This document shows, in pieces, positions 2,747-49,084 of a stretch of DNA of 64,000 nucleotides. Positions within the stretch are counted from its first letter, which is position 1. Each line of letters begins with the position of its first letter. The stretch covers positions 1 through 64,000 of the forward strand of contig JAEUUY010000019.1 in NCBI GenBank assembly GCA_016787225.1, read 5' to 3'. The translations under genes were made by a program, and so were the position numbers. The notes beneath the pieces were generated by a model. It did not search any database. It saw only the letters and a list, made by a program, of their open reading frames with translations, and was not told the DNA's origin. The stretch comes from Chitinophagales bacterium (GTDB taxonomy: Bacteria > Bacteroidota > Bacteroidia > Chitinophagales > JADJOU01).

Positions 2747-3259
2747 CTATTTACTTTTTAATTCTTCTATCAAGGCATCTATTTTCTCAGGTGTCAAATG
2801 CTCTCGATAACTTTTACCCAACTGTAGCATGGGGGCATATCCACAAGCACCGAGACATTCTACTTCTTTGATTGTAAACATTCCATCAGCAGTAGTCTCG
2901 CCAGATTTTATACCTAGCTTTTTGCAAGTATAGTCAATCAAACTCTCCACACCCGCAGTAGCACACGTAGCCGTATGACAAAACTCTAGCATATATTTGC
3001 CAACAGGTTTTAGATTATACATCGAATAGAAACTTGCTACTTCATATACTTCTATTGGCTTTAGACTCAATACCTCTGCTACATAATTCAGAGTATTGAC
3101 ACTTAACCAGCCGCCAAATTCTGCCTGAGCTATGTGTAATACTCTTAGTAAAGCACTTTTTTGTTTGCCTTCAGGATATTGAGCGATAATCCGCTGCACC
3201 TCTTGCATGGTTTCTGCTTTGAATTGTGGCTTTTCTGGGGCTTCTGTTACTTTTACCAT
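2747..3259 (-). CDS. nuoE: NADH-quinone oxidoreductase subunit E (2Fe-2S)
   Basis: This 24-kDa-type subunit of complex I carries the 2Fe-2S cluster N1a next to NuoF. At 170 aa it matches the family. The thioredoxin-like fold shows the paired cysteine motifs CHTATC (around residue 95) and CLGAC (around 135), and the helical N-terminus contains the usual KQSALLRVLHIAQ-type segment. It lies 7 bp after the small membrane protein gene and 1 bp before the DUF4349 gene. The start is an ATG with no competing upstream start. Confidence 0.96.
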   Translation of the reverse strand: MVKVTEAPEKPQFKAETMQEVQRIIAQYPEGKQKSALLRVLHIAQAEFGGWLSVNTLNYVAEVLSLKPIEVYEVASFYSMYNLKPVGKYMLEFCHTATCATAGVESLIDYTCKKLGIKSGETTADGMFTIKEVECLGACGYAPMLQLGKSYREHLTPEKIDALIEELKSK

Positions 3260-3266
3260 TTTATTT

Positions 3267-3599
3267 CTATTTGATATTCTGTAAATTTAATTCTATAAAA
3301 TACTGCATACCTACATCTTTTATCTTTCTCAATAAAAACGTGAAAAACATGATATATAAAAGATGGTGCAATGTCATTTCTAGGGTGAAACTACTCGTAG
3401 TATTTGATTCTTTGATGTAATATAAAATTGCGAAAACCATGATGCTTACAGCCATATATTCACTATTCCATAAGAGCAAAAATAAAACACCAATAAGTGG
3501 TCGAGAATAACTGACTGTATCTTTTACTACCCAAGGAAGCATCAGCCAAGAAAGACCGAGCCCTATGAGTAAGAAAAGAATACTGATTAATTCTGACAT
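3267..3599 (-). CDS. Small membrane protein of unknown function in the nuo operon
   Basis: I do not recognise this 110-aa protein. It has about three or four hydrophobic segments (roughly residues 4-25, 35-62 and 78-92) and few charged residues. It begins 5 bp after nuoD and ends 7 bp before nuoE, so it is placed as a bona fide operon member. It has none of the signatures of NuoH, J, K, L, M or N. It could be a lineage-specific complex I accessory protein or a passenger gene. That it is translated is inferred from the tight spacing. Confidence 0.65.
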   Translation of the reverse strand: MSELISILFLLIGLGLSWLMLPWVVKDTVSYSRPLIGVLFLLLWNSEYMAVSIMVFAILYYIKESNTTSSFTLEMTLHHLLYIMFFTFLLRKIKDVGMQYFIELNLQNIK

Positions 3600-3604
3600 A
3601 TATT

Positions 3605-4807
3605 TTATGCATCAAGTTCTCCCGCAATCACATTTAGACTACTCATGGTTAAAATAGCATCGCTCAATACTTGCCCTTTAATCATTTCTGGATATGCCTG
3701 ATAATATATAAAACAAGGTCTGCGGAAATGTAAACGATAAGGGCTACGTCCGCCATCGCTCTGAATATAGAATCCCAACTCTCCATTTCCTCCTTCTACC
3801 GGGAAGTATACTTCACCCTTTGGCATAGGGACTTCTCCCATAATTATTTTAAATTGATAAATCAATTGTTCCATTTTGGAATATACATCCTGCTTAGGAG
3901 GTAAGAAAAAATCTGGCACATCGGCATGAGATTTCCCTTCAGGTAAATTTTCATATGCATTCTTCATCAATTGAAAACTCTGACGAATTTCTTCTTGACG
4001 TACGGTGAATCTATCATAAGTATCACCATTAACTCCTACGGGGACCGTAAAATTAAAATCATCATAACTAGAATATGGGTGAGCTACACGCACGTCATAA
4101 TCGACACCTGTAGCACGCAGATTGGGACCTGTAAATCCATAAGCTAGAGCCATTTCTGGAGAAATAGGTCCTGCACCAATACATCTATCCATAAAGATCC
4201 TATTGCGCTCTAGTAGAGAATTAAACTCTTCAAAAGCTGCAGGAAAATCTTTAATAAAATCTTTGATTAATTGATGAAAACGTGGAGAAAAATCTCTGTC
4301 AAATCCTCCAATTCGCCCCATATTGGTAGTCAAGCGAGCACCTGCCACCTCTTCATACATATCGTAAATTTTCTCTCTCCACTGCCAGATATAGGTAAAT
4401 CCTGTCAAGGCTCCTGTATCTACACCTATTACAGAATCACAAATTATATGATCTGCTATACGTGCCATTTCCATGAGGATGATTCGCATGTAATCCACCT
4501 TTTTGGGTACTTTGATCTTGGCTAATTTTTCTACAGCCATCGTATAACCTATGTTATTGATAGGCGATGAGCAATAATTTAGCCTATCCGTCAAGGTTGT
4601 AATTTGATAATAGGCTCTATGCTCCGCTATTTTTTCAAATGCTCTATGGATATATCCCACGGTAGCTTCGGAGCTCAGAATACGTTCGCCATCTACCTTA
4701 AGCACATTTTGAAATATACCATGAGTAGCAGGGTGAGTAGGACCTAGATTGAGGGTAGCTATTTCACCATCAAAATTATCATACATTTCAAAATTAGAAT
4801 TCGCCAT
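3605..4807 (-). CDS. nuoD: NADH-quinone oxidoreductase subunit D
   Basis: This is the 49-kDa-type subunit that helps form the quinone site of complex I. At 400 aa it is a separate NuoD and not the NuoCD fusion found in enterobacteria. It shows the N-terminal NLGPTHPATHG motif (residues 21-31), the GYIHRAFEK segment, and the conserved C-terminal GGRSPYRLHFRRPCF region. It lies 71 bp after nuoC; that gap is AT-rich with no clear promoter. Confidence 0.97.
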   Translation of the reverse strand: MANSNFEMYDNFDGEIATLNLGPTHPATHGIFQNVLKVDGERILSSEATVGYIHRAFEKIAEHRAYYQITTLTDRLNYCSSPINNIGYTMAVEKLAKIKVPKKVDYMRIILMEMARIADHIICDSVIGVDTGALTGFTYIWQWREKIYDMYEEVAGARLTTNMGRIGGFDRDFSPRFHQLIKDFIKDFPAAFEEFNSLLERNRIFMDRCIGAGPISPEMALAYGFTGPNLRATGVDYDVRVAHPYSSYDDFNFTVPVGVNGDTYDRFTVRQEEIRQSFQLMKNAYENLPEGKSHADVPDFFLPPKQDVYSKMEQLIYQFKIIMGEVPMPKGEVYFPVEGGNGELGFYIQSDGGRSPYRLHFRRPCFIYYQAYPEMIKGQVLSDAILTMSSLNVIAGELDA

Positions 4808-5391: not shown

Positions 5392-5932
5392 TATTATAAG
5401 TATCTAGTAATTTTTTATACTCAGGCATATTTCTTCGTCTAATAGATTCCGATTTTGATAATTCCTGAATCTTCATAACTCCTTCTATGATTTGCTCTGG
5501 ACGAGGAGGGCAGCCTGGGACATAGACATCCACAGGTATGACTCTATCGATACCCTGCAGCACAGAATATGTGTCAAAAATACCACCGCTACTGGCACAA
5601 GCACCCACTGCAATAACCCAACGTGGTTCTGCCATTTGTTCATATACCTTACGAAGTATTGGTGCCATTTTTTTAGCGATAGTACCCATAACCATAAGCA
5701 TATCCGCTTGACGAGGCGAGAAACTTAATCGTTCTGACCCAAAACGTGCTAAATCATAATTCGGACCCATAGTACTCATAAACTCAATGCCACAGCATGA
5801 TGTAGCAAAAGGCAGCGGCCAAAGCGAATTAGCTCTAGCTAAACCAATAGCTTCGCTAAATTTTGTAAGCATAAATCCTTCACCTTGGTAGGACTCGATT
5901 TGTTCTGTTTTAATTTTATCTAACTGATTCAT
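5384..5932 (-). CDS. nuoB: NADH-quinone oxidoreductase subunit B
   Basis: This is the PSST-type subunit holding cluster N2, the last iron-sulfur cluster before quinone. At 182 aa it is normal. All four ligand regions are visible: the tandem cysteines in FATSCCGIEFM, GACASSGG, and VPGCPPRPEQII. It sits 34 bp after nuoA and overlaps nuoC by 8 bp. Confidence 0.97.
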   Translation of the reverse strand: MNQLDKIKTEQIESYQGEGFMLTKFSEAIGLARANSLWPLPFATSCCGIEFMSTMGPNYDLARFGSERLSFSPRQADMLMVMGTIAKKMAPILRKVYEQMAEPRWVIAVGACASSGGIFDTYSVLQGIDRVIPVDVYVPGCPPRPEQIIEGVMKIQELSKSESIRRRNMPEYKKLLDTYNID

Positions 5933-5966
5933 ATTTTATATTTCAATAAAACTTACTTTAACACTT

Positions 5967-6323
5967 CTATTTATTCCAATCCAAAACTCCTTTCTTTATT
6001 ACATAGTAAAAGCCACAGAGAAAGAAAGCCACAAAAATGAGAACAGCATAAAAGCCTTGCCAGCCCATATCAAGAAAGTTAACTGCGTATGGGTAAAAGA
6101 ATACTACTTCTACATCGAATAAGACAAAAAGGATAGCAACTAAAAAATATTTTACAGAAATGGGAAATCGGGCATCTCCTTGGCTTTCTATTCCACATTC
6201 AAACGCTTCGTTCTTAGCTTTTGAATGTCGCTTAGGACCTAAAAAATGTGTGCCAACTAGGGTCAAAACAACAAACCCAATAGAAACGATGCTAGCGAGA
6301 AGTATAGGAATATAAGAATTCAT
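5967..6323 (-). CDS. nuoA: NADH-quinone oxidoreductase subunit A
   Basis: This small membrane subunit of complex I has 118 aa and three transmembrane segments (about residues 5-27, 60-80 and 88-108). It carries the conserved loop motif KNEAFECGIESQGDAR and the acidic FDVEVVFFYPYA segment in the second helix. It is the first gene of the operon; a -7 box lies 20 bp upstream. Confidence 0.96.
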   Translation of the reverse strand: MNSYIPILLASIVSIGFVVLTLVGTHFLGPKRHSKAKNEAFECGIESQGDARFPISVKYFLVAILFVLFDVEVVFFYPYAVNFLDMGWQGFYAVLIFVAFFLCGFYYVIKKGVLDWNK

Positions 6324-6343
6324 TCAATTAATTATTGTATCCG

Positions 6344-6351
6344 CAAATCTA
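6344..6351 (-). promoter_or_regulatory. Promoter -7 box of the nuo operon
   Basis: On the minus strand the sequence reads TAGATTTG, matching the Bacteroidota -7 consensus TAnnTTTG, 20 bp before the nuoA ATG. No good -33 TTG is seen at the usual spacing. The following bases CGGATACAATAAT are identical to those after the -7 box of the gene at 30061. Confidence 0.65.
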
Positions 6352-6420
6352 GTAATTCTCAAGAAACTAAAACGATATTTCTGACTTTAATTTTACTGCA
6401 ATTATGAAGCCTTAATCCAA

Positions 6421-6554
6421 ATTCCGCATTATAAAAATGCAGAATCGATTAAGAATTTGTATTTCAATCTCGTACGTACGGGATTGAAACATATTCTAAA
6501 TCGTCCAGAAGGCTTTTCGGGACAACTTAATCATATAGTTCGCCACGCTGTGGC
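6421..6554. repeat. Palindrome-rich intergenic segment
   Basis: The 328-bp gap 6324-6651 holds no recognisable gene beyond the nuoA promoter. It contains three inverted repeats. The first is 6421-6444 (ATTC-n-GCATT ... AATGC-n-GAAT). The second is a 28-bp near-perfect palindrome at 6462-6489 (TTTCAATC-n-CGTACGTACG-n-GATTGAAA), where the n/n pair is T and G. The third is GCCAC-GCT-GTGGC at 6542-6554. No T-run follows any of them, so they do not look like terminators. They could be the remains of a repeat element. Confidence 0.5.
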
Positions 6555-6651
6555 TTCTAATGTTTATTTTGAGTTTAACAAGATTTAAATGGTGAGAAGC
6601 TAAATTCCTTTTTCCTATTTCGTTATCTTTGTTTTAAAATCTCAAACAATA

Positions 6652-6954
6652 TTGACTAACAAATTTATTTTCAAGAATATAGCGATACTAGTAGGTATGA
6701 CAATACTACCTTTGGTTCTGCTCTTTTTGCCAAAGGATTTCTTTGATAATGGACCAACGCTATGTTTATTTACTCTTGTCACAGGGGTCAATTGCCCAGG
6801 GTGCGGTATGACACGTGCATGCATGCGAATGATCCATTTTGATTTTCAAGGAGCTTGGTTGTTTCATAAAGCAAGTTTTGTGGTACTACCTACTCTTATA
6901 TTTTTATATATCCGTTTTTTTGTACTAAAATTAAGACAAATTGTTAAATTCTAG
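6652..6954 (+). CDS. DUF2752 small membrane protein
   Basis: This 100-aa protein shows the DUF2752 signature CPGCGMTRA in the middle (residues 45-53), then a conserved His/Asp-containing segment (RMIHFDFQGAW) and two hydrophobic stretches around residues 7-25 and 70-92. Function is unknown; the two Cys in CPGC are the family hallmark. The start used is TTG; an ATG at 6697 (residue 16) is an alternative that would cut into the first helix. No promoter was identified. Confidence 0.8.
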   Translation: MTNKFIFKNIAILVGMTILPLVLLFLPKDFFDNGPTLCLFTLVTGVNCPGCGMTRACMRMIHFDFQGAWLFHKASFVVLPTLIFLYIRFFVLKLRQIVKF

Positions 6955-6984
6955 CGAAAAGCCAACTAAAAATTGTTTGAAATC

Positions 6985-7014
6985 TTGAATTGTCATTTTT
7001 TTTCACTATATTTG
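6985..7014 (+). promoter_or_regulatory. Promoter of the sorting-tail gene and yihY
   Basis: TTG (-33) at 6985-6987, a 19-bp spacer and TATATTTG (-7) at 7007-7014 match the Bacteroidota housekeeping consensus exactly. The likely start site is near 7021, 8 nt before the ATG at 7029. Confidence 0.8.
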
Positions 7015-7028
7015 CTTCAAGTTTGATT

Positions 7029-7328
7029 ATGACGATGAAAAGGCTTTTAATATTTCTTGGTTTAACTTTTACATTGGTATCCTTTACCCTTGCGGACAAG
7101 GACGGTATCAATAGTCTTAGTATTTATCCGCAGCCTATTGTCAAAAAGGCCAGAGTTCAATGCGAAATTGAACTTAGGAAAGTAGAAGTCTATAATTTAT
7201 TAGGCAATAAAGTAATGGAGCGCGATGGACAAGGAGAATTGGACTTCTCAGATTTGCCAAGCGGTTATTATTTTATCAAAGCTTATTCAGACAAAGGTGA
7301 CATTGTAAAAAGAGTTCAGAAGAACTAA
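7029..7328 (+). CDS. Free-standing T9SS sorting-tail protein
   Basis: This 99-aa secreted protein has an N-terminal signal peptide (LLIFLGLTFTLVSFTLA), after which almost everything left looks like a type A T9SS C-terminal sorting domain. The landmarks are LSIYPQPI (usually YPNP), VEVYNLLGNKV, LDFSDLPSGYYFIKAY and a final VKRVQKN. There is no cargo domain in front. I moved the start from a TTG at 6990, which lies inside the promoter, to ATG 7029; ATG 7035 is also possible. It ends 5 bp before yihY, so the two share a transcript. The class of domain is clear; the function of a tail without cargo is unknown. Confidence 0.75.
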   Translation: MTMKRLLIFLGLTFTLVSFTLADKDGINSLSIYPQPIVKKARVQCEIELRKVEVYNLLGNKVMERDGQGELDFSDLPSGYYFIKAYSDKGDIVKRVQKN

Positions 7329-7333
7329 ATTTC

Positions 7334-8221
7334 ATGTCGGTTTTTAAGCGATTGACTCTTCCAGGATTTGAGAGAGTTCCTATTCATAAGGTCTTAGGTC
7401 TAGTTATTAGAGAGATTCGTTCTCCTATAATGATATTGCGTGCCAAAGCCATTGCATATAGCTTTTTCCTTGCTATTTTCCCTTCGATTGTTTTTTTATT
7501 TAGCTTACTTTCCTATTTACCAAAGAGTAGAGAACTCACAGAAAATATATTGGGGTATCTCAATAAAATGTCTCCGAACCAGCAGATGATCGAGTTATTT
7601 AAACCTATTATACATGAGGTAATGAATGGACCCAAAGGCGGTATTCTATCGATTGGTTTTTTATTGATAATTTTCTTCATGAAAAACGGAGTAGTAACTA
7701 TGATGCAATCTTTCAATGTGCATTTTGAAATTCGCTCGGGCAAATTGTTTATAAAAAATCAACTATTATCTATTGTTATTACAATTGTCGTTCTTGTTTT
7801 ATTCGTTTTGACTATTGTTTTGCTTGTATTAGGTAAATTCATCATGCAAAAACTATTTGACTTTTTCAGTTATGATGGACATGTTTTAGTATTGTTAATA
7901 GATTTGTTACGATATAGTATAAGTATCACTTTAAATTTTCTTGTAATTTCCATATTATATTATCTAGGACCTATCGTGCGACCAGAGAGATTTAAAGTGT
8001 TTACTCCTGGTTCTATTGTTGCTACGACTATGATTGTGTTGGTATCGGTTTTATTTTCTTACTACATCAAAAATTTTGGCAACTACAATAAAATCTATGG
8101 ATCCCTAGGAGTCTTAATTTTTATGCTTATATGGCTATACTGGAACGCACTCGCTATACTTATTGGATATGAAATGAATAGAGGCATAAATATGCTAAAG
8201 TCTAAACGGCGAAAAAAGTAA
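7334..8221 (+). CDS. YihY/BrkB family inner-membrane protein
   Basis: This 295-aa polytopic membrane protein has about six transmembrane helices. It carries the family features: the N-terminal AKAIAYSFFLAIFPSIVFLFSLLSY segment and the C-terminal GSLGVLIFMLIWLYWNALAILIGYEMN. The family was once called ribonuclease BN in error; it is thought to be an envelope protein or transporter of unknown substrate. It lies 5 bp after the sorting-tail gene and converges with the glycosyltransferase gene at 8227, 5 bp away, with no hairpin terminator between them. Confidence 0.88.
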   Translation: MSVFKRLTLPGFERVPIHKVLGLVIREIRSPIMILRAKAIAYSFFLAIFPSIVFLFSLLSYLPKSRELTENILGYLNKMSPNQQMIELFKPIIHEVMNGPKGGILSIGFLLIIFFMKNGVVTMMQSFNVHFEIRSGKLFIKNQLLSIVITIVVLVLFVLTIVLLVLGKFIMQKLFDFFSYDGHVLVLLIDLLRYSISITLNFLVISILYYLGPIVRPERFKVFTPGSIVATTMIVLVSVLFSYYIKNFGNYNKIYGSLGVLIFMLIWLYWNALAILIGYEMNRGINMLKSKRRKK

Positions 8222-8226
8222 AAATA

Positions 8227-9480
8227 TTAGTTTTTAACTTTCAAAAGTTTTTCCGCAACTGCTATTTTGTATATCTCATATAAACAAGACAGAATGACAA
8301 TGAAAAACAACAATGCTATAAACTTACTTCTTAATAAAAGTACATTATAGTTTTGAAAAGATAAACTCTTTAAAACATCCTCCACATTCAATAGATAGGC
8401 TAAACTCGCCAATAAACCGATATGCCATTTACTAGACCTAATGGAATAGATAACTAAAAAGATGATGGCAGCATGTGCATAACGTTCGTGCATTTGAGTG
8501 CAGAAAAAGAAAAAAATAAGCGGTAAAATACCCCAGCTAAGAATAGCTAGATCATGATTTATAGTATTACTTGTTTTACCTAAAATTCTTTTAAGACTCC
8601 AAACAAATAGTGGCCATAATGAAAGAAAGCTAAAAATAAAAAAGAGTGCCAGTCCCCAAGTCTTATAGCTAAATCCATACAAAATCTCAGAATCCTTCAT
8701 CCATCTGGCCTCTCCTCCTATAAATGCGAACCATATATTATAAGCGTTAGCCGAGATATAAGGTTGGCTATCGACCAAGGTAGCTATAACTCTCCAGATA
8801 TCGCCCAATTTACCATGGAGTATGTAAGGTAAGAAGATAATAGTTTGGATAATTACCAAATATATGAAATCAGAAAGAATAGATTTTCGATCTCCATGCC
8901 AGTATATTGGTACCAATAGGAATAGAATAGCTGGAGTAAAAACAATAGCCTGATATTTAAAATTAAGCGCTAATAAAAATGATATCAACCCCATGCGTGT
9001 ATTTTCTTTCAATAGAAAATATAAACTCATAACCATAAAGAAAGAAATGATTTCATCTACCTGTCCCCAAACTAAAGTATTATGTAAAACAGCAATATTC
9101 AAAAGATAAAATATGCCATAATAACTATTAACTAGCGGAGAAAATTTACGCAAAAAATGAAAGACCATATAGCTGGATCCAAGGTGGAAAAGGAAAATAA
9201 CGAGTTTGAAGTATTTAATATTTAGTGTCAACTCATCAATACTATCCTTCCATTGAGAATAAAGATACAATAAATACTGAAAGGCAGGCAAGTATTCTGT
9301 ATCCGTATTGTAGACATTCAGTAGTCCAGAAGTTTTGATATAACTTATCCACCTAAGCCAGCATACTCTATCATCATAGTGGCATCTTTCAGGGACTATA
9401 AAAAGTATGACTAGAAAAAACAAACTGGCAAAAACAAAAAAATGTTTTTGCCAATCCTCTAGTTTAAATTTAATAAACAT
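8227..9480 (-). CDS. Polytopic membrane protein, probable GT-C glycosyltransferase
   Basis: This 417-aa protein has about ten membrane helices. The first large loop contains acidic residues (HYDDRVCWLRWI) where GT-C enzymes hold catalytic Asp. A WGQVDEIISFF motif around residue 140 and a following NFKYQAIVFTPA helix are typical of the mannosyltransferase-like GT-C group that uses lipid-linked sugars. The acceptor is unknown. It lies 10 bp after recA, in the same direction, which suggests read-through from recA. I am sure of the topology and moderately sure of the class. Confidence 0.6.
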   Translation of the reverse strand: MFIKFKLEDWQKHFFVFASLFFLVILFIVPERCHYDDRVCWLRWISYIKTSGLLNVYNTDTEYLPAFQYLLYLYSQWKDSIDELTLNIKYFKLVIFLFHLGSSYMVFHFLRKFSPLVNSYYGIFYLLNIAVLHNTLVWGQVDEIISFFMVMSLYFLLKENTRMGLISFLLALNFKYQAIVFTPAILFLLVPIYWHGDRKSILSDFIYLVIIQTIIFLPYILHGKLGDIWRVIATLVDSQPYISANAYNIWFAFIGGEARWMKDSEILYGFSYKTWGLALFFIFSFLSLWPLFVWSLKRILGKTSNTINHDLAILSWGILPLIFFFFCTQMHERYAHAAIIFLVIYSIRSSKWHIGLLASLAYLLNVEDVLKSLSFQNYNVLLLRSKFIALLFFIVILSCLYEIYKIAVAEKLLKVKN

Positions 9481-38257: not shown

Positions 38258-38992
38258 GTGGAAATCGAAGTAGAAAAAGTAGTTCCCTATAATCAGGAGA
38301 AAGAAAAGAGGGTGCAAATAGAGTCGATGTTTGACAATATAGCACATAAGTATGATTTTTTGAATCACCTTTTGAGTTTGGGTATAGATATTACATGGAG
38401 AAAACGCGCTATTCGTGAAGTTTCTGTTGTTCAGCCTAGATTAATACTCGATATGGCTTCTGGTACAGGAGATTTTGCATTCGAGGCCTTAAGTATTTCA
38501 CCTGAAAAAATCGTAGCTCTAGATCTATCACAAAATATGCTCGACATAGGGAGGTCTAAGGCAAGTACTAAAGATACTCAAACTATTATCGATTGGGTCA
38601 AAGGCGATAGTGAGCAGATATTATATTCAGACGGTCATTTTGATGCTATCACCGTAGGCTTTGGTGTGCGAAATTTCCAAAATCTTGAAAAAGGTCTTTC
38701 CGAATTGCATAGAGTTCTACGACCGGGAGGCATGATAGCTATTTTGGAACCTTCTTTTCCTACGAATCCATTTTTAAAAATTTTATTTAACATACATTTT
38801 CGATATATTACCCCTTTGGTAGGGAAATTATTTTCAAAGGATGCCAGAGCTTATACTTATTTACCAGATTCGGTTAGTGTATTTCCGCAAGGAGATTCGT
38901 TCTGCAAAATATTGGAAAATGTTGGATTTAAGGATACTAAACATATCGCTTTGACGTTTGGTATGTGTGCGCTATACCTTGCCAGAAAGTAA
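38258..38992 (+). CDS. ubiE: Demethylmenaquinone/ubiquinone methyltransferase
   Basis: This SAM-dependent methyltransferase makes menaquinone from demethylmenaquinone (MenG role). The protein shows MFDNIAHKYDFLNHLLSLGID, the SAM motif ILDMASGTGDFAF, DAITVGFGVRNFQN and LHRVLRPGGMIAILE. I start at GTG 38258 (244 aa), which lies 18 bp after the -7 box and fits family length. The longer ATG at 38174 would overlap engB by 21 bp. porT starts 1 bp after its stop. Confidence 0.92.
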   Translation: MEIEVEKVVPYNQEKEKRVQIESMFDNIAHKYDFLNHLLSLGIDITWRKRAIREVSVVQPRLILDMASGTGDFAFEALSISPEKIVALDLSQNMLDIGRSKASTKDTQTIIDWVKGDSEQILYSDGHFDAITVGFGVRNFQNLEKGLSELHRVLRPGGMIAILEPSFPTNPFLKILFNIHFRYITPLVGKLFSKDARAYTYLPDSVSVFPQGDSFCKILENVGFKDTKHIALTFGMCALYLARK

Positions 38993-38993
38993 C

Positions 38994-39671
38994 ATGAAAC
39001 ATTATATTATTTTTTCTTTTGTCATATTAAATTTGTCTGGATTACATGGGCAACTAAATTTTTACGAAAAAGGAAACAAGGCGCTCTATTGGGGGATTTC
39101 ATTAGGATTAAATATCTCTAACTTTAGAATTGATAGGCAACCACATTCCGAAGCGAATGATTCAATTTTAAGTATTGAGGATAAATCTCAACCAGGATTT
39201 AATCTGGGCCTTATTGGTAATTGGCAATTTAACCGCTATTTTGATCTGCGATTTATCCCTAATATGACATTTGGTGAAAAATTGATTCAATACAATACCA
39301 TCAATGGGACAGTCGATAATCGAATTAAAACTACCTACATATCCTTACCTGTTCATATTCGGTATAAGTCTGAACCTGTAAACGATTGGAGAATTTTTGT
39401 AGTAGCAGGGTTAAAATATGATTTAAATATAGACCCTCAAGTTAGAACTACCAGTGAGCCAAATAAAATATCACTTCGAAAATCAGGTCTATCCATGGAA
39501 TATGGTATCGGTCTCCAATATTTTTTCCCATATTTTATTTTCTCTCCAGAGTTAAAATATTCCCATAGTCTCAATAGTGTACTGGATCCTAATCAGAGTG
39601 ATTTGAATAGGTCAGCTATAAGAGGCTTATATCCCCGAACTTTGATATTTACCTTAAACTTTGAGGGTTAG
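38994..39671 (+). CDS. porT: T9SS component PorT (SprT) outer-membrane protein
   Basis: This 225-aa outer-membrane beta-barrel protein has a signal peptide (MKHYIIFSFVILNLSGLHGQ), repeated amphipathic strands (WGISLGLNISNF, GFNLGLIGNWQFNRYFDLRFIPNMTFGE, YGIGLQYFFPYFIFSPELKYSHSL) and an aromatic last strand (TLIFTLNFEG). Placement directly after ubiE is a conserved arrangement of porT in Bacteroidota and supports the name. PorT is required for type IX secretion, which the several sorting-tail proteins in this window need. I chose ATG 38994 over the upstream in-frame start inside ubiE. Confidence 0.85.
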   Translation: MKHYIIFSFVILNLSGLHGQLNFYEKGNKALYWGISLGLNISNFRIDRQPHSEANDSILSIEDKSQPGFNLGLIGNWQFNRYFDLRFIPNMTFGEKLIQYNTINGTVDNRIKTTYISLPVHIRYKSEPVNDWRIFVVAGLKYDLNIDPQVRTTSEPNKISLRKSGLSMEYGIGLQYFFPYFIFSPELKYSHSLNSVLDPNQSDLNRSAIRGLYPRTLIFTLNFEG

Positions 39672-42443: not shown

Positions 42444-45400
42444 ATGAAGCTTTTTATTTTTATTTTGTCATTAGTTACTTGCAATTTTTTCTTTGCTCAA
42501 AACTTCCAATCTCCCACTAATCCCTATTTCTGGAAAAATAAAATAGGCTTAAAAAGTGAATATTGGCAGCAAGATGTAGATTATATCATCAATGCTAGCC
42601 TGGATGAGAAAGAAGAAATTATTTCAGGTAAAGTAGAAATTATTTATACCAATAATTCTCCGCATGTATTGAATGAATTGTTTTTCAATCTTTATCAAAA
42701 TGCCTTTATCAAAGAATCGTATCTCTCCAATTTACAAGAGGCGAATGGAAACAAAGTGCGTTTTGGTAAATGGGAAGCCGAAGGTAAGGGGAATGAAATT
42801 CTATCATTGAAAGTAGATGGTGAAGTAGTAAAAACAGAAATTGATGGTTCTATCATGAAGGCATGGCTCAAAAATCCTATGCAGCCCAATACGAACATAA
42901 AAATTGAGATTGATTTTAAGACCTATTACAGTAAAGGTGGTGACACGAGAAGAAGAATGAAATCATACACCTATCAAGGCGTAAAGCATTTCAATGGGGC
43001 TCACTGGTATCCTAGGCTGGCGGTTTATGATAGAAAATTTGGCTGGTGTACCGATCAGCACTTAAATCGTGAGTTTTATGGTGATTTTGGAAATTATCGC
43101 GTTCATTTAGATTTTCCTGCGAATTATGTGGTGGAGGCTACAGGTGTCTTGCAAAATAGAACCGAAGTGCTTCCGGATACCTTGCGAAAAAAATTGGATA
43201 TTTCCAATTATTGGAGTCATCCTTGGGATACAGTCGTAACTTATAAAATTCCAATGAAAAAAGGTGAACGCAAAGTTTGGAAGTATTTTGCAGAGAACGT
43301 GCATGATTTCGCATGGGTTGCGGGACCTCATTATCGCTTGGATGAGAAGAACTACAAAGGGTTTAGCACGGTAGCATTGGTGTTAGAACCACATTGTAGT
43401 GGTTGGAAAAATGCTTGTGATTTTTCTGCCAAAGTTATCGACGTCTATAGTAGAGATTTCGGACAATATGCCTACCCGAAAATGGTCGTAGCAGATTGTC
43501 AAGATGGGATGGAATATCCTATGCTCACTATGGATGGTGGTTCAGACCCTGGCTATAGAGGATTATTGGCTCATGAGATAGGACATAATTGGTTTTATGG
43601 TATGGTCAATAATAATGAGACTTACAGAGCTCTGCTAGACGAAGGATTTACCCAGTTCTTGACCGTATGGGCACTAGAAGCTATCGATGGTAAGAATATG
43701 TTTACAACTGGTAAGCAACCAAAACATTTTATGCCAACCGCAGTCAGAAATGCACGCTGCTATGATAGTTATATGCTAGATGCTATGAGCCATGAGCGCA
43801 CTGAGATCAATGTGCATAGCGATGGATTTAATGGTGCCTTAGGCCAAGGCGGAGGCTATCGAAATGTCTATAACAAAACAGCTACTATGCTTTACAATCT
43901 GCAATACGTGCTAGGAGATAGTCTATTTCAGCGGGCTATGAAGCACTATTTCAATCAATGGTCATTTCGTCATCCTTATGTGGAGGATTTTAGAAATTCT
44001 ATTATAGAATATACCAAGGTAGATTTGAATTGGTTTTTTGACCAATGGATAGAGACATCCAAAGTGCTTGATTATAAAATTTTTCCTCTGAAAAAATTAG
44101 ATAGTGGACAGTATCAATTGAAGTTAAAACGAATGGAAGATATGCAGTCGCCTCTGGACATAACCGTATTTGGAAAAAGTGGCAAACGATATAATTTTTA
44201 CATTCCGAATACCTGGTTTGAAAAAGAGACTGAAGCTACTAAACTGCCACGCTGGATAGGCTGGGATAACAAATTAAAGACGACTTATACTGTGAAAATT
44301 TCATTACCGGAAGAACCGAAATATGCAAGAATTGATACCTCGAGAAGACTAGCAGATATCAATGAAATGAATAATACGACTGAGTGCAATTGGAAATTAT
44401 ATTTCGATCGAAATCAATCGTTGCCTCGAGATAGAGAGCATTACACCGTACTATGGCGTCCTGATTTTTGGTATAATAATTTTGATGGTGTCAAGGCAGG
44501 TGTTCATTTTGAGGGTAGTTTAAATAAAAATTTTCATCAAACTGAGTTAGATATATGGCTCAATACTCGAATAGGAAAGTGGAGCGTTCGCGATGTAGCA
44601 AATCAAAATGAAAGAAATGCCATCAATGATTTGATTTCTTTCCGATTTACCTATAGTTCTCCTACGCACAAGTTTATTAAAAATAGCGATGTTCGATTTG
44701 AAGCGAGGCATATCGATGGTATAGCCTTGACCTCTTTGCAATGGAGAAAAGCATTTGAAAATTCTAATTATATCACTTTAGGAGGTAAGTCTATGGTTCG
44801 CTATCGCAGGGATCAGGATTATTATAATTATATGACTTCTATACAATGGAATACTTTCCTCATGGCAAATACCAGTGCATGGATAGAGTGGATAAATAAC
44901 AAAAGTCTAGATAGGAATTTGGAACAAATGACGCGAGTTAAGCTTAGGTCTTCTGTAATGTCTGTTGCTAATTTTAGCTATCTCGAAGCGGAGCATAAAG
45001 AAAATATAAAATTGGATAAATTGCTTTTCAAATTCAGAATTTTTGGAAGACTGGGAACGCATAATCGTGGGTTAGTTCCTACCGAAGTACTATTAAATGC
45101 TGGAGGAGCAAGCGGAGAAGAAATGTTGGAAAATAAATTTATGCGCAGTGTTTCCGCTTTTCCAGATTTATTTATGAAAGGAAGTCAGTTTGTAAATTCT
45201 CCGTATTTTTCACATCTTCACTATGGTGGGGGAATCAATCTAAGAGGCTATGCATTTCGAAATATTGTAGCTTCAGATGGCATAGGTTATTTTATCAATA
45301 ATCAAAATAGCGGTTTTTCAATCAATACACAACTAAACTTCGAGAATTTATCACCATTGAGATTTGGAAAATTAGCACGCTCATTAGGAATGAACATTTA

Positions 45401-45644
45401 TTTGTTTGGAGATTTAGGAAGTTTGTCTAACTTTAACTTAGGTCGCTTTAGCATAGAACAGGCTCCAATACTAGCAGACGCGGGATTAGGTACTGCTTTG
45501 ACTTGGAAAAAGGGAATAAAATATCTAGGACTAGGACCTATGACCTTTCGCTTCGATATGCCATTCTATTTATCGCATCCTGCCGCAGGTGAGTTGGAGA
45601 AGTTTCAGATTAGATGGCTAGTGGGAGTTGAGCAGGCTTTTTAG
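42444..45644 (+). CDS. M1-family metallopeptidase with a C-terminal Omp85-like barrel
   Basis: This 1066-aa protein has a signal peptide (MKLFIFILSLVTCNFFFAQ), then an M1 aminopeptidase core with the zinc motif HEIGH at residues 377-381 and the third ligand Glu400 (HExxH-x18-E). After about residue 660 it changes to alternating aromatic strands. It contains LRGY at 933-936 in a glycine-rich context (GGGINLRGY), matching the conserved loop motif of Omp85/surface-antigen barrels. It ends in an amphipathic strand with a terminal Phe (RWLVGVEQAF), the outer-membrane insertion signal. This suggests a peptidase tethered to or displayed by its own barrel. It overlaps the convergent aminotransferase gene by 4 bp. 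Confidence 0.85.
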   Translation: MKLFIFILSLVTCNFFFAQNFQSPTNPYFWKNKIGLKSEYWQQDVDYIINASLDEKEEIISGKVEIIYTNNSPHVLNELFFNLYQNAFIKESYLSNLQEANGNKVRFGKWEAEGKGNEILSLKVDGEVVKTEIDGSIMKAWLKNPMQPNTNIKIEIDFKTYYSKGGDTRRRMKSYTYQGVKHFNGAHWYPRLAVYDRKFGWCTDQHLNREFYGDFGNYRVHLDFPANYVVEATGVLQNRTEVLPDTLRKKLDISNYWSHPWDTVVTYKIPMKKGERKVWKYFAENVHDFAWVAGPHYRLDEKNYKGFSTVALVLEPHCSGWKNACDFSAKVIDVYSRDFGQYAYPKMVVADCQDGMEYPMLTMDGGSDPGYRGLLAHEIGHNWFYGMVNNNETYRALLDEGFTQFLTVWALEAIDGKNMFTTGKQPKHFMPTAVRNARCYDSYMLDAMSHERTEINVHSDGFNGALGQGGGYRNVYNKTATMLYNLQYVLGDSLFQRAMKHYFNQWSFRHPYVEDFRNSIIEYTKVDLNWFFDQWIETSKVLDYKIFPLKKLDSGQYQLKLKRMEDMQSPLDITVFGKSGKRYNFYIPNTWFEKETEATKLPRWIGWDNKLKTTYTVKISLPEEPKYARIDTSRRLADINEMNNTTECNWKLYFDRNQSLPRDREHYTVLWRPDFWYNNFDGVKAGVHFEGSLNKNFHQTELDIWLNTRIGKWSVRDVANQNERNAINDLISFRFTYSSPTHKFIKNSDVRFEARHIDGIALTSLQWRKAFENSNYITLGGKSMVRYRRDQDYYNYMTSIQWNTFLMANTSAWIEWINNKSLDRNLEQMTRVKLRSSVMSVANFSYLEAEHKENIKLDKLLFKFRIFGRLGTHNRGLVPTEVLLNAGGASGEEMLENKFMRSVSAFPDLFMKGSQFVNSPYFSHLHYGGGINLRGYAFRNIVASDGIGYFINNQNSGFSINTQLNFENLSPLRFGKLARSLGMNIYLFGDLGSLSNFNLGRFSIEQAPILADAGLGTALTWKKGIKYLGLGPMTFRFDMPFYLSHPAAGELEKFQIRWLVGVEQAF

Positions 45645-48046: not shown

Positions 48047-49084
48047 ATGAAAAAACTAATTTTAAGTATTGGAATTTTGTTAGTTGCTTCACTCCATGCA
48101 CAAGAGAGTCCAGAAGTAATTAAAACAAAAATTGATGATTTAAACAAACAAAAAGCGGTATTAGAATCACAGATAGCTGATTTAAACAAACAACTTCCTG
48201 CTCCAGTTGTAAAGCCTTGGACTTACAAAGGAAATGCTTCTATAAATTTGGGTCAAAACTTACTTGGTTCTGATTGGACTGCATCCTATGGTGGTAATAG
48301 TACTTTGAATATAGGTGGGCAAGCCCATTTGGAAGCTAATTATAAGAATGGTCGTCATTCATGGAACAATAGTTTTGATGGAACGTTGGGATTTTTCAAA
48401 AATATAAATGTGGAAAATGGTGTAAATGATAATATCAATAAGAATGTAGACGTTTTACAACTATCAACAAAGTATTTATTTGATTTACAAAAAGCTAATT
48501 TAAAAGTAGGAGTTGGAGCTAATTTTCTTTCACAATTTATAAAGACCTACGATTTGGCAAATCCTAATTTCTTGCTTTCAGATTTTTTGGCGCCAGGTAT
48601 TTTAGATTTATCTCCAGGCATCGAATGGACTCCCCAACCATATTTAAAAGTATTTTTAGCACCTGCATCTGGTAGATTTACATTTGTGACTAATGACACT
48701 ATTATTTTAAGAACAGATGCCAAAGCTAATAGATTTGGAAACGAGGTAGACCAGCGTGTAAGAACGGAACTTGGAGCTCGATTAGACATAGTTTTTGAAA
48801 AAGAGCTAGTTAAAAATTTAAATATCCGCAGTCGAGCTCAGTTGTTTAATAATTTTTCTAGACCTCAAGCACAGATAGATGCGATTAATAGCAGCCGAGC
48901 GAATATCGATATCAATTGGCAGACAGATGTTTTCTATAAGCTAACAAAGCATATTGCATTAAACTTTGGATTTCAATTGTTGAGAGATGATGATGTGCGT
49001 ATTACAGACAAATCAACTGGCTCTAAAATAACACCTTGGAACTGGAGAAATAACATAGGCATAGGATTTGTAGCAGGCTTCTAA
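48047..49084 (+). CDS. DUF3078 outer-membrane protein
   Basis: This 345-aa protein has a signal peptide (MKKLILSIGILLVASLHAQ), a short coiled coil (about residues 25-50: TKIDDLNKQKAVLESQIADLNKQL) and then the DUF3078 beta-barrel-like domain (WTYKGNASINLGQNLLGSDWTASYGGNSTLNIGG). It ends in WRNNIGIGFVAGF, a typical outer-membrane last strand with terminal Phe. Function unknown. Confidence 0.85.
   Translation: MKKLILSIGILLVASLHAQESPEVIKTKIDDLNKQKAVLESQIADLNKQLPAPVVKPWTYKGNASINLGQNLLGSDWTASYGGNSTLNIGGQAHLEANYKNGRHSWNNSFDGTLGFFKNINVENGVNDNINKNVDVLQLSTKYLFDLQKANLKVGVGANFLSQFIKTYDLANPNFLLSDFLAPGILDLSPGIEWTPQPYLKVFLAPASGRFTFVTNDTIILRTDAKANRFGNEVDQRVRTELGARLDIVFEKELVKNLNIRSRAQLFNNFSRPQAQIDAINSSRANIDINWQTDVFYKLTKHIALNFGFQLLRDDDVRITDKSTGSKITPWNWRNNIGIGFVAGF

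Follow-up and report, generated by a model that had tools for sequence, protein, structure and literature searches.

Omp85 proteins are known mainly for insertion and translocation. The gene studied here raises the question of whether a barrel of this superfamily can form the C-terminal part of a zinc peptidase and, if so, on which side of the outer membrane the enzyme would be held. It lies in the window, that is, the whole stretch of 64,000 nucleotides analysed from a Chitinophagales genome, and its open reading frame runs from ATG to stop and encodes 1066 amino acids (Table 1). Conservation was counted over 28 aligned members, the window protein plus 27 loci, with identities to the window protein of 41-87% over the whole length and 27-80% over the barrel. 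Residues H377, E378, H381, E400, Y476, and R934 were invariant (28/28), G935 was kept in 27 and Y936 in 26 of the 28, and the C-terminal Phe was present in all 27 alignment rows that reach the protein end. The original prediction had located HEIGH at 377-381, Glu400, LRGY at 933-936, and a final Phe; each was found at its place, invariant or nearly so. Judged by the alignment, the zinc site, the LRGY motif, and the terminal Phe are real and under selection, not products of chance. At the N-terminus, predicted cleavage after residue 18 of the putative signal peptide would make Gln19 the new N-terminus, which fits the Q-rule of Bacteroidota. Relatives close to the window protein have GAQT, IAQS, or FAQS at the end of the signal peptide, and the N-terminal Gln after the putative signal peptide (42444-42500) is the same in several of them.

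Table 1: Features of the M1-Omp85 fusion gene, with positions in the window.
Feature	Residues	Position	Strand	Basis
Whole gene, M1 aminopeptidase - Omp85 barrel fusion	1-1066	42444..45644	+	1066 aa; open reading frame and whole-length relatives
Putative signal peptide, ...FFFA	1-18	42444..42497	+	Read directly from sequence
M1 peptidase region	38-640	42555..44363	+	PF01433; VIA; soluble relatives
DGMEYP, GxMEN counterpart	354-359	43503..43520	+	D354-Y358 invariant, 28/28
HEIGH zinc site	377-381	43572..43586	+	H, E, H invariant, 28/28
Glu400, third zinc ligand	400	43641..43643	+	Invariant, 28/28
Tyr476, presumed catalytic Tyr	476	43869..43871	+	Invariant, 28/28
Linker	641-666	44364..44441	+	Ordered in model; POTRA absent
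16-strand Omp85-type barrel	667-1066	44442..45641	+	AlphaFold2 models; Foldseek; VIA; hhalign
RPDFWYNNFDGVKAG, barrel-family strand 1 signature	672-686	44457..44501	+	Common to standalone barrels (PDLWYNDVDGIRVG)
Long loop, strands 11-12, L6 position	874-955	45063..45308	+	Secondary structure of both models
LRGY, Omp85 L6 motif	933-936	45240..45251	+	Conserved; hhalign register
C-terminal Phe, ends last strand, outer-membrane-protein type	1066	45639..45641	+	Sequence, alignment

The Peptidase_M1 profile (PF01433) matched residues 374-535 of the window protein with an E value of 1e-16 and 61.7 bits, the curated cut-off being 27.7 bits, and it matched 28 of 28 members. The region is composed of an N-terminal sheet domain, a catalytic domain, and a C-terminal beta-sandwich. 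An AlphaFold2 model of the whole protein was obtained with moderate confidence (mean pLDDT 78.7) and compared with solved M1 enzymes, which it matched from residue 41 to about 640 with VIA Z of 25-28 over approximately 384-485 residues; the structures were tricorn F3, IRAP, LTA4H, and the two-domain Deinococcus M1. The distance from HEIGH to Glu400 follows the M1 pattern HEXXH-18-E, and Tyr476 is presumably the catalytic Tyr of the M1 family. In the GxMEN exopeptidase motif, which here reads D-G-M-E-Y-P, the Glu is invariant and the Asn is replaced by Tyr; given this GMEY form, an exopeptidase specificity is presumptive. The zinc site, which had been described as intact, proved to be so, since its four residues are invariant and the model has the M1 fold. 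On both grounds this part of the protein is a predicted M1 zinc aminopeptidase whose active site is intact.

The C-terminal third is less easily assigned by standard profiles. The Omp85 profile PF01103 gave no Pfam match in any of the 28 members, searches of this third of the window protein against Pfam, NCBIfam, and PDB sequences gave nothing useful, and the NCBIfam BamA profile TIGR03303 matched one member only (3.5e-4). Considering that the Pfam Omp85 match was absent, the barrel was tested by profile-profile comparison and by structure. A first hhalign comparison of a narrow barrel profile with Omp85 gave E values of 0.0004-0.0024, which are only suggestive; here the LRGY motif, FxDxG strand, and next GxG strand lined up in register with Bacteroidota Omp85. 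After distant relatives were added, chosen by the barrel profile and not by likeness to Omp85, the E values fell to 6.2e-8 and 2.3e-6 for two sets of Omp85 proteins gathered from Bacteroidota, while TonB receptors, FadL proteins, and reversed profiles, used as controls, gave 0.029 or more. Kinship with the Omp85 families, expected in the original prediction from a profile search of this part, is supported by this comparison. The missed PF01103 match reflects the reach of the profile more than any biological trait that would define the superfamily.

The barrel was also modelled alone (residues 667-1066, mean pLDDT 73.1, moderate confidence), because M1 matches fill the structure-search list of the whole model. 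Sixteen strands were present both in this model and in that of the whole protein, the number that had been proposed. All 50 of the solved-structure matches listed for the barrel-only model were Omp85 proteins, with VIA Z of 17.8-20.4 over about 270-318 residues, and Foldseek E values against solved Omp85 went down to 1.7e-9. They include BamA, TamA, Sam50, and FhaC, and among them the BamA of Flavobacterium, Porphyromonas, and Bacteroides. In the models LRGY is situated within an 82-residue loop between strand 11 (860-873) and strand 12 (956-966), so that its reading as the inward-loop motif of Omp85 agrees with its L6 position and with its conservation in the members. No POTRA domain was matched by Pfam in the window protein or in the other members. 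Residues 541 to about 645 fall within M1, just as they do in soluble relatives; since the stretch between catalytic domain and barrel is the M1 beta-sandwich, found in those relatives too, no POTRA is present. A classical autotransporter (type Va) does not fit either, given that no Pfam autotransporter domain was matched and that there are 16 strands versus 12. Profile comparison, strand number, and the all-Omp85 list of structures agree on a peptidase fused to a barrel of the Omp85 superfamily, as had been claimed, and on the strength of sequence profiles and models the C-terminal domain is an Omp85-superfamily barrel without POTRA domains.

Far from being a one-off, the fusion occurs widely in Bacteroidota. 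A search of species genomes gave 32 loci, belonging to Bacteroidota wherever the group is named. A whole-length match was present in 30 of 60 near genomes and in pieces or at contig ends in 8 more, and all five other genomes of the window genome's own family carry the fusion. Frames of about 1000-1100 aa holding M1 relatives were common among 296 sampled genomes of the phylum, and soluble M1 relatives of about 630 aa were found to stop at the equivalent of residues ~631-650. The barrel profile also detected, in the phylum sample, standalone barrels of 400-470 aa; those read have the strand-1 motif and RGY in common with the fused barrel, and taken alone they reached no better than 4.5e-4 in hhalign against BamA-type proteins and gave no hhalign match with the TamA-type. 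In one family (f24) a standalone barrel and a soluble M1 of ~630 aa occur together in 35 of the 35 genomes having an M1 match. A simple "Rosetta stone" fission was considered for this family and rejected, as its standalone barrels stand near the window's branch and its soluble M1 among other fused proteins. In quick, unrooted trees from a thin sample, the soluble proteins formed one group amid the fused ones in the M1 tree, and the standalone barrels formed one group adjoining the window's branch in the barrel tree. Because these placements differ, the barrel and the soluble M1 look like the outcome of two separate events; the simplest reading, with rooting and sampling both weak, is that the fusion is old and that each half was lost or set free from it on one occasion. 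Another M1 subfamily, also widespread and ~1010-1090 aa long (L172-L177), was checked because the barrel match was missing from it. Its C-terminal domain is related to the barrel (hhalign E 5e-11), shows no clear Omp85 match, and is mostly without RGY. Longer fused relatives were also seen, one of 1169 aa with insertions in the barrel (L179) and another with a long N-terminal extension, in an open frame of 1602 aa (L181, in genome G179).

The standalone barrels have neighbours of their own. At one locus (L158) a standalone barrel (5629-6927) and a lipoprotein-like protein of ~577 aa (6940-8691) lie in a conserved neighbourhood, and the same pairing was found at another (L155), at 5901-6985(-) and 2955-4684(-), where the lipoprotein-like protein has a match to the caspase domain (PF00656, E 6e-7). 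Next to these pairs lie genes whose products look like acetate kinase, EamA permease, and phosphotransacetylase.

A key aspect is the side of the membrane on which the peptidase would be located. In the barrel-only model the loops after odd strands have 3, 23, 2, 21, 6, 82, 14, and 14 residues, and the turns after even strands have 4, 7, 3, 2, 2, 14, and 11. In outer-membrane barrels the short-turn side is the periplasmic one. Because strand 1 starts on the short-turn side, the barrel ends, and hence the M1 attachment, would be periplasmic. The linker is predicted to be ordered (mean pLDDT ~79-89 per 10-residue block in the whole model). There is also the precedent of PlpD, the most thoroughly studied fusion of an enzyme to an Omp85 barrel, whose enzyme domain was expected outside and proved periplasmic (PMC11116518). 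Taking into account the attachment on the short-turn side, the short ordered linker, and this precedent, a periplasm-facing aminopeptidase anchored in the outer membrane is favoured. We consider it reasonably likely that the fusion is an outer-membrane enzyme, made of an M1 zinc aminopeptidase and a C-terminal, POTRA-less, 16-strand Omp85 barrel, that faces the periplasm; in this arrangement the enzyme is probably kept on the inner side of the outer membrane, as the model and the PlpD analogy suggest.

Other readings of the same architecture were weighed. The M1 domain might be passed through or alongside the barrel, in the manner of an autotransporter, and act on extracellular peptides. Such an enzyme would suit peptide-eating Bacteroidota, surface aminopeptidase autotransporters exist (Pseudomonas aeruginosa, PMC3426542), and PlpD itself was long regarded as an autotransporter of its enzyme to the surface. 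However, M1 is a folded enzyme of ~70 kDa, unlike beta-helical passengers, the L6 loop is expected to occupy the barrel lumen, and the periplasmic attachment, the linker, and the outcome for PlpD all go against surface display, which we regard as unlikely. The "self-displayed" protease of the original prediction is likewise not supported; the parts of that interpretation that stand are a peptidase-Omp85 fusion of non-textbook M1 type, the 16 strands, and an LRGY in L6. An M1 enzyme with a soluble beta-rich C-terminal domain, only superficially similar to a barrel, could be invoked from the lack of Pfam Omp85 matches (0/28). It is contradicted already by the 16 strands, by solved matches that among those listed are all Omp85 with Z 18-20, by the hhalign E of 6e-8 against controls of at least 0.03, by LRGY in the right loop, and by the final Phe; we rejected it as extremely improbable.

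The barrel could also be a working Omp85 machine that inserts or moves proteins or lipids, with the peptidase processing the passing material. It is BamA/TamA-like and carries the L6 motif, and standalone barrels of the same family adjoin the caspase-like lipoprotein, so that the barrel has two pairings with something peptidase-like. Against this, POTRA, the substrate-capturing domain of most Omp85 machines, is absent; another M1 branch has divergent barrel relatives mostly without RGY, and some M1 branches are without a barrel, so M1 and barrel can part. A working machine is thus judged improbable. Somewhat more doubtful is a broader version, in which unrecognised outer-membrane machines throughout Bacteroidota would combine an Omp85 barrel with peptidases, M1 by fusion and the caspase-like lipoprotein as a neighbour, and couple passage to processing. 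If true, they might supply the N-terminal proteolytic pressure that the pyroglutamate of the Q-rule counters.

For the periplasm-facing enzyme we propose the following course. The fusion protein would be exported by Sec, signal cleavage would expose the N-terminal Gln, BAM would insert the barrel in the outer membrane, and beneath its periplasmic mouth the peptidase domain would be docked. In that position the enzyme may shorten peptides at the outer membrane from their N-terminal ends, the likely substrates being free N-termini of imported peptides or of fragments released from exported proteins. The barrel would be an anchor, possibly placing the enzyme next to other outer-membrane machines. 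The Q-rule refers to the N-terminal pyroglutamate of exported proteins in Bacteroidota, thought to protect them against aminopeptidases (PMC10653852). We infer a link between this rule and the M1 fusion, the enzyme itself seemingly following it by means of Gln19. The gene offers a definite candidate for an aminopeptidase bound to the outer membrane, in a phylum whose exports pyroglutamate presumably guards against such enzymes.

By comparison with known systems, the closest layout is that of PlpD (type Vd), which also has a signal peptide, an N-terminal enzyme, and a C-terminal 16-strand Omp85 barrel; it differs in its patatin-like lipase domain in place of M1 and in having a POTRA domain, and PlpD itself is known to form a homodimer. 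PlpD showed that the Omp85 scaffold can carry an enzyme, and the window gene adds a zinc aminopeptidase. BamA, TamA/TamL, and Sam50 share the 16-strand barrel and the L6 RGY/RGF motif, but they have POTRA and no enzyme, and the window barrel is unrecognised by the Pfam Omp85 model. Soluble M1 enzymes such as LTA4H, tricorn F3, and the M1 of Deinococcus radiodurans share the M1 fold, HEXXH-18-E, and the Tyr; they have no barrel, and the window protein has GMEY versus GxMEN and the additional outer-membrane domain. The remark that this is not a textbook M1 architecture is justified. Because the standard Pfam model misses the barrel, profile annotation shows only an M1 peptidase. Heinz and Lithgow (2014) defined ten Omp85/TpsB subfamilies, "Metallo" and "noNterm" included (PMC4104836); in the portion of that paper drawn on here, none of the ten is described with M1, subfamilies lacking POTRA are already published, the "noNterm" layout resembles that of our standalone barrels, and "Metallo" carries PF00149, not M1. 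Section 10 of that paper terms "Metallo" a metalloprotease, though PF00149 is a metallophosphoesterase domain. A search of open-access papers turned up no account of an M1-Omp85 fusion. The pairing is common and apparently undescribed, and extends the enzyme-Omp85 fusions of which PlpD is the founding example.

The neighbouring genes include a dicarboxylate symporter (-), a class V aminotransferase (-), and a glycosyltransferase (-), among others. Because genes on either side are on the opposite strand, the gene forms a unit of its own and points to no partner. Gene order around the fusion is kept only in the closest relatives (L006-L008), and the idea of an operon or partner was discarded, as this limited synteny names neither a partner nor a substrate. 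Other M1 matches in the genome are of other types, and PF01103 has one match elsewhere on the contig. Two outer-membrane-type proteins are encoded nearby, one at 38958-39671(+) with OMP_b-brl_2 (E 5e-17) and the other at 48047-49084(+) with DUF3078 (E 4e-12).
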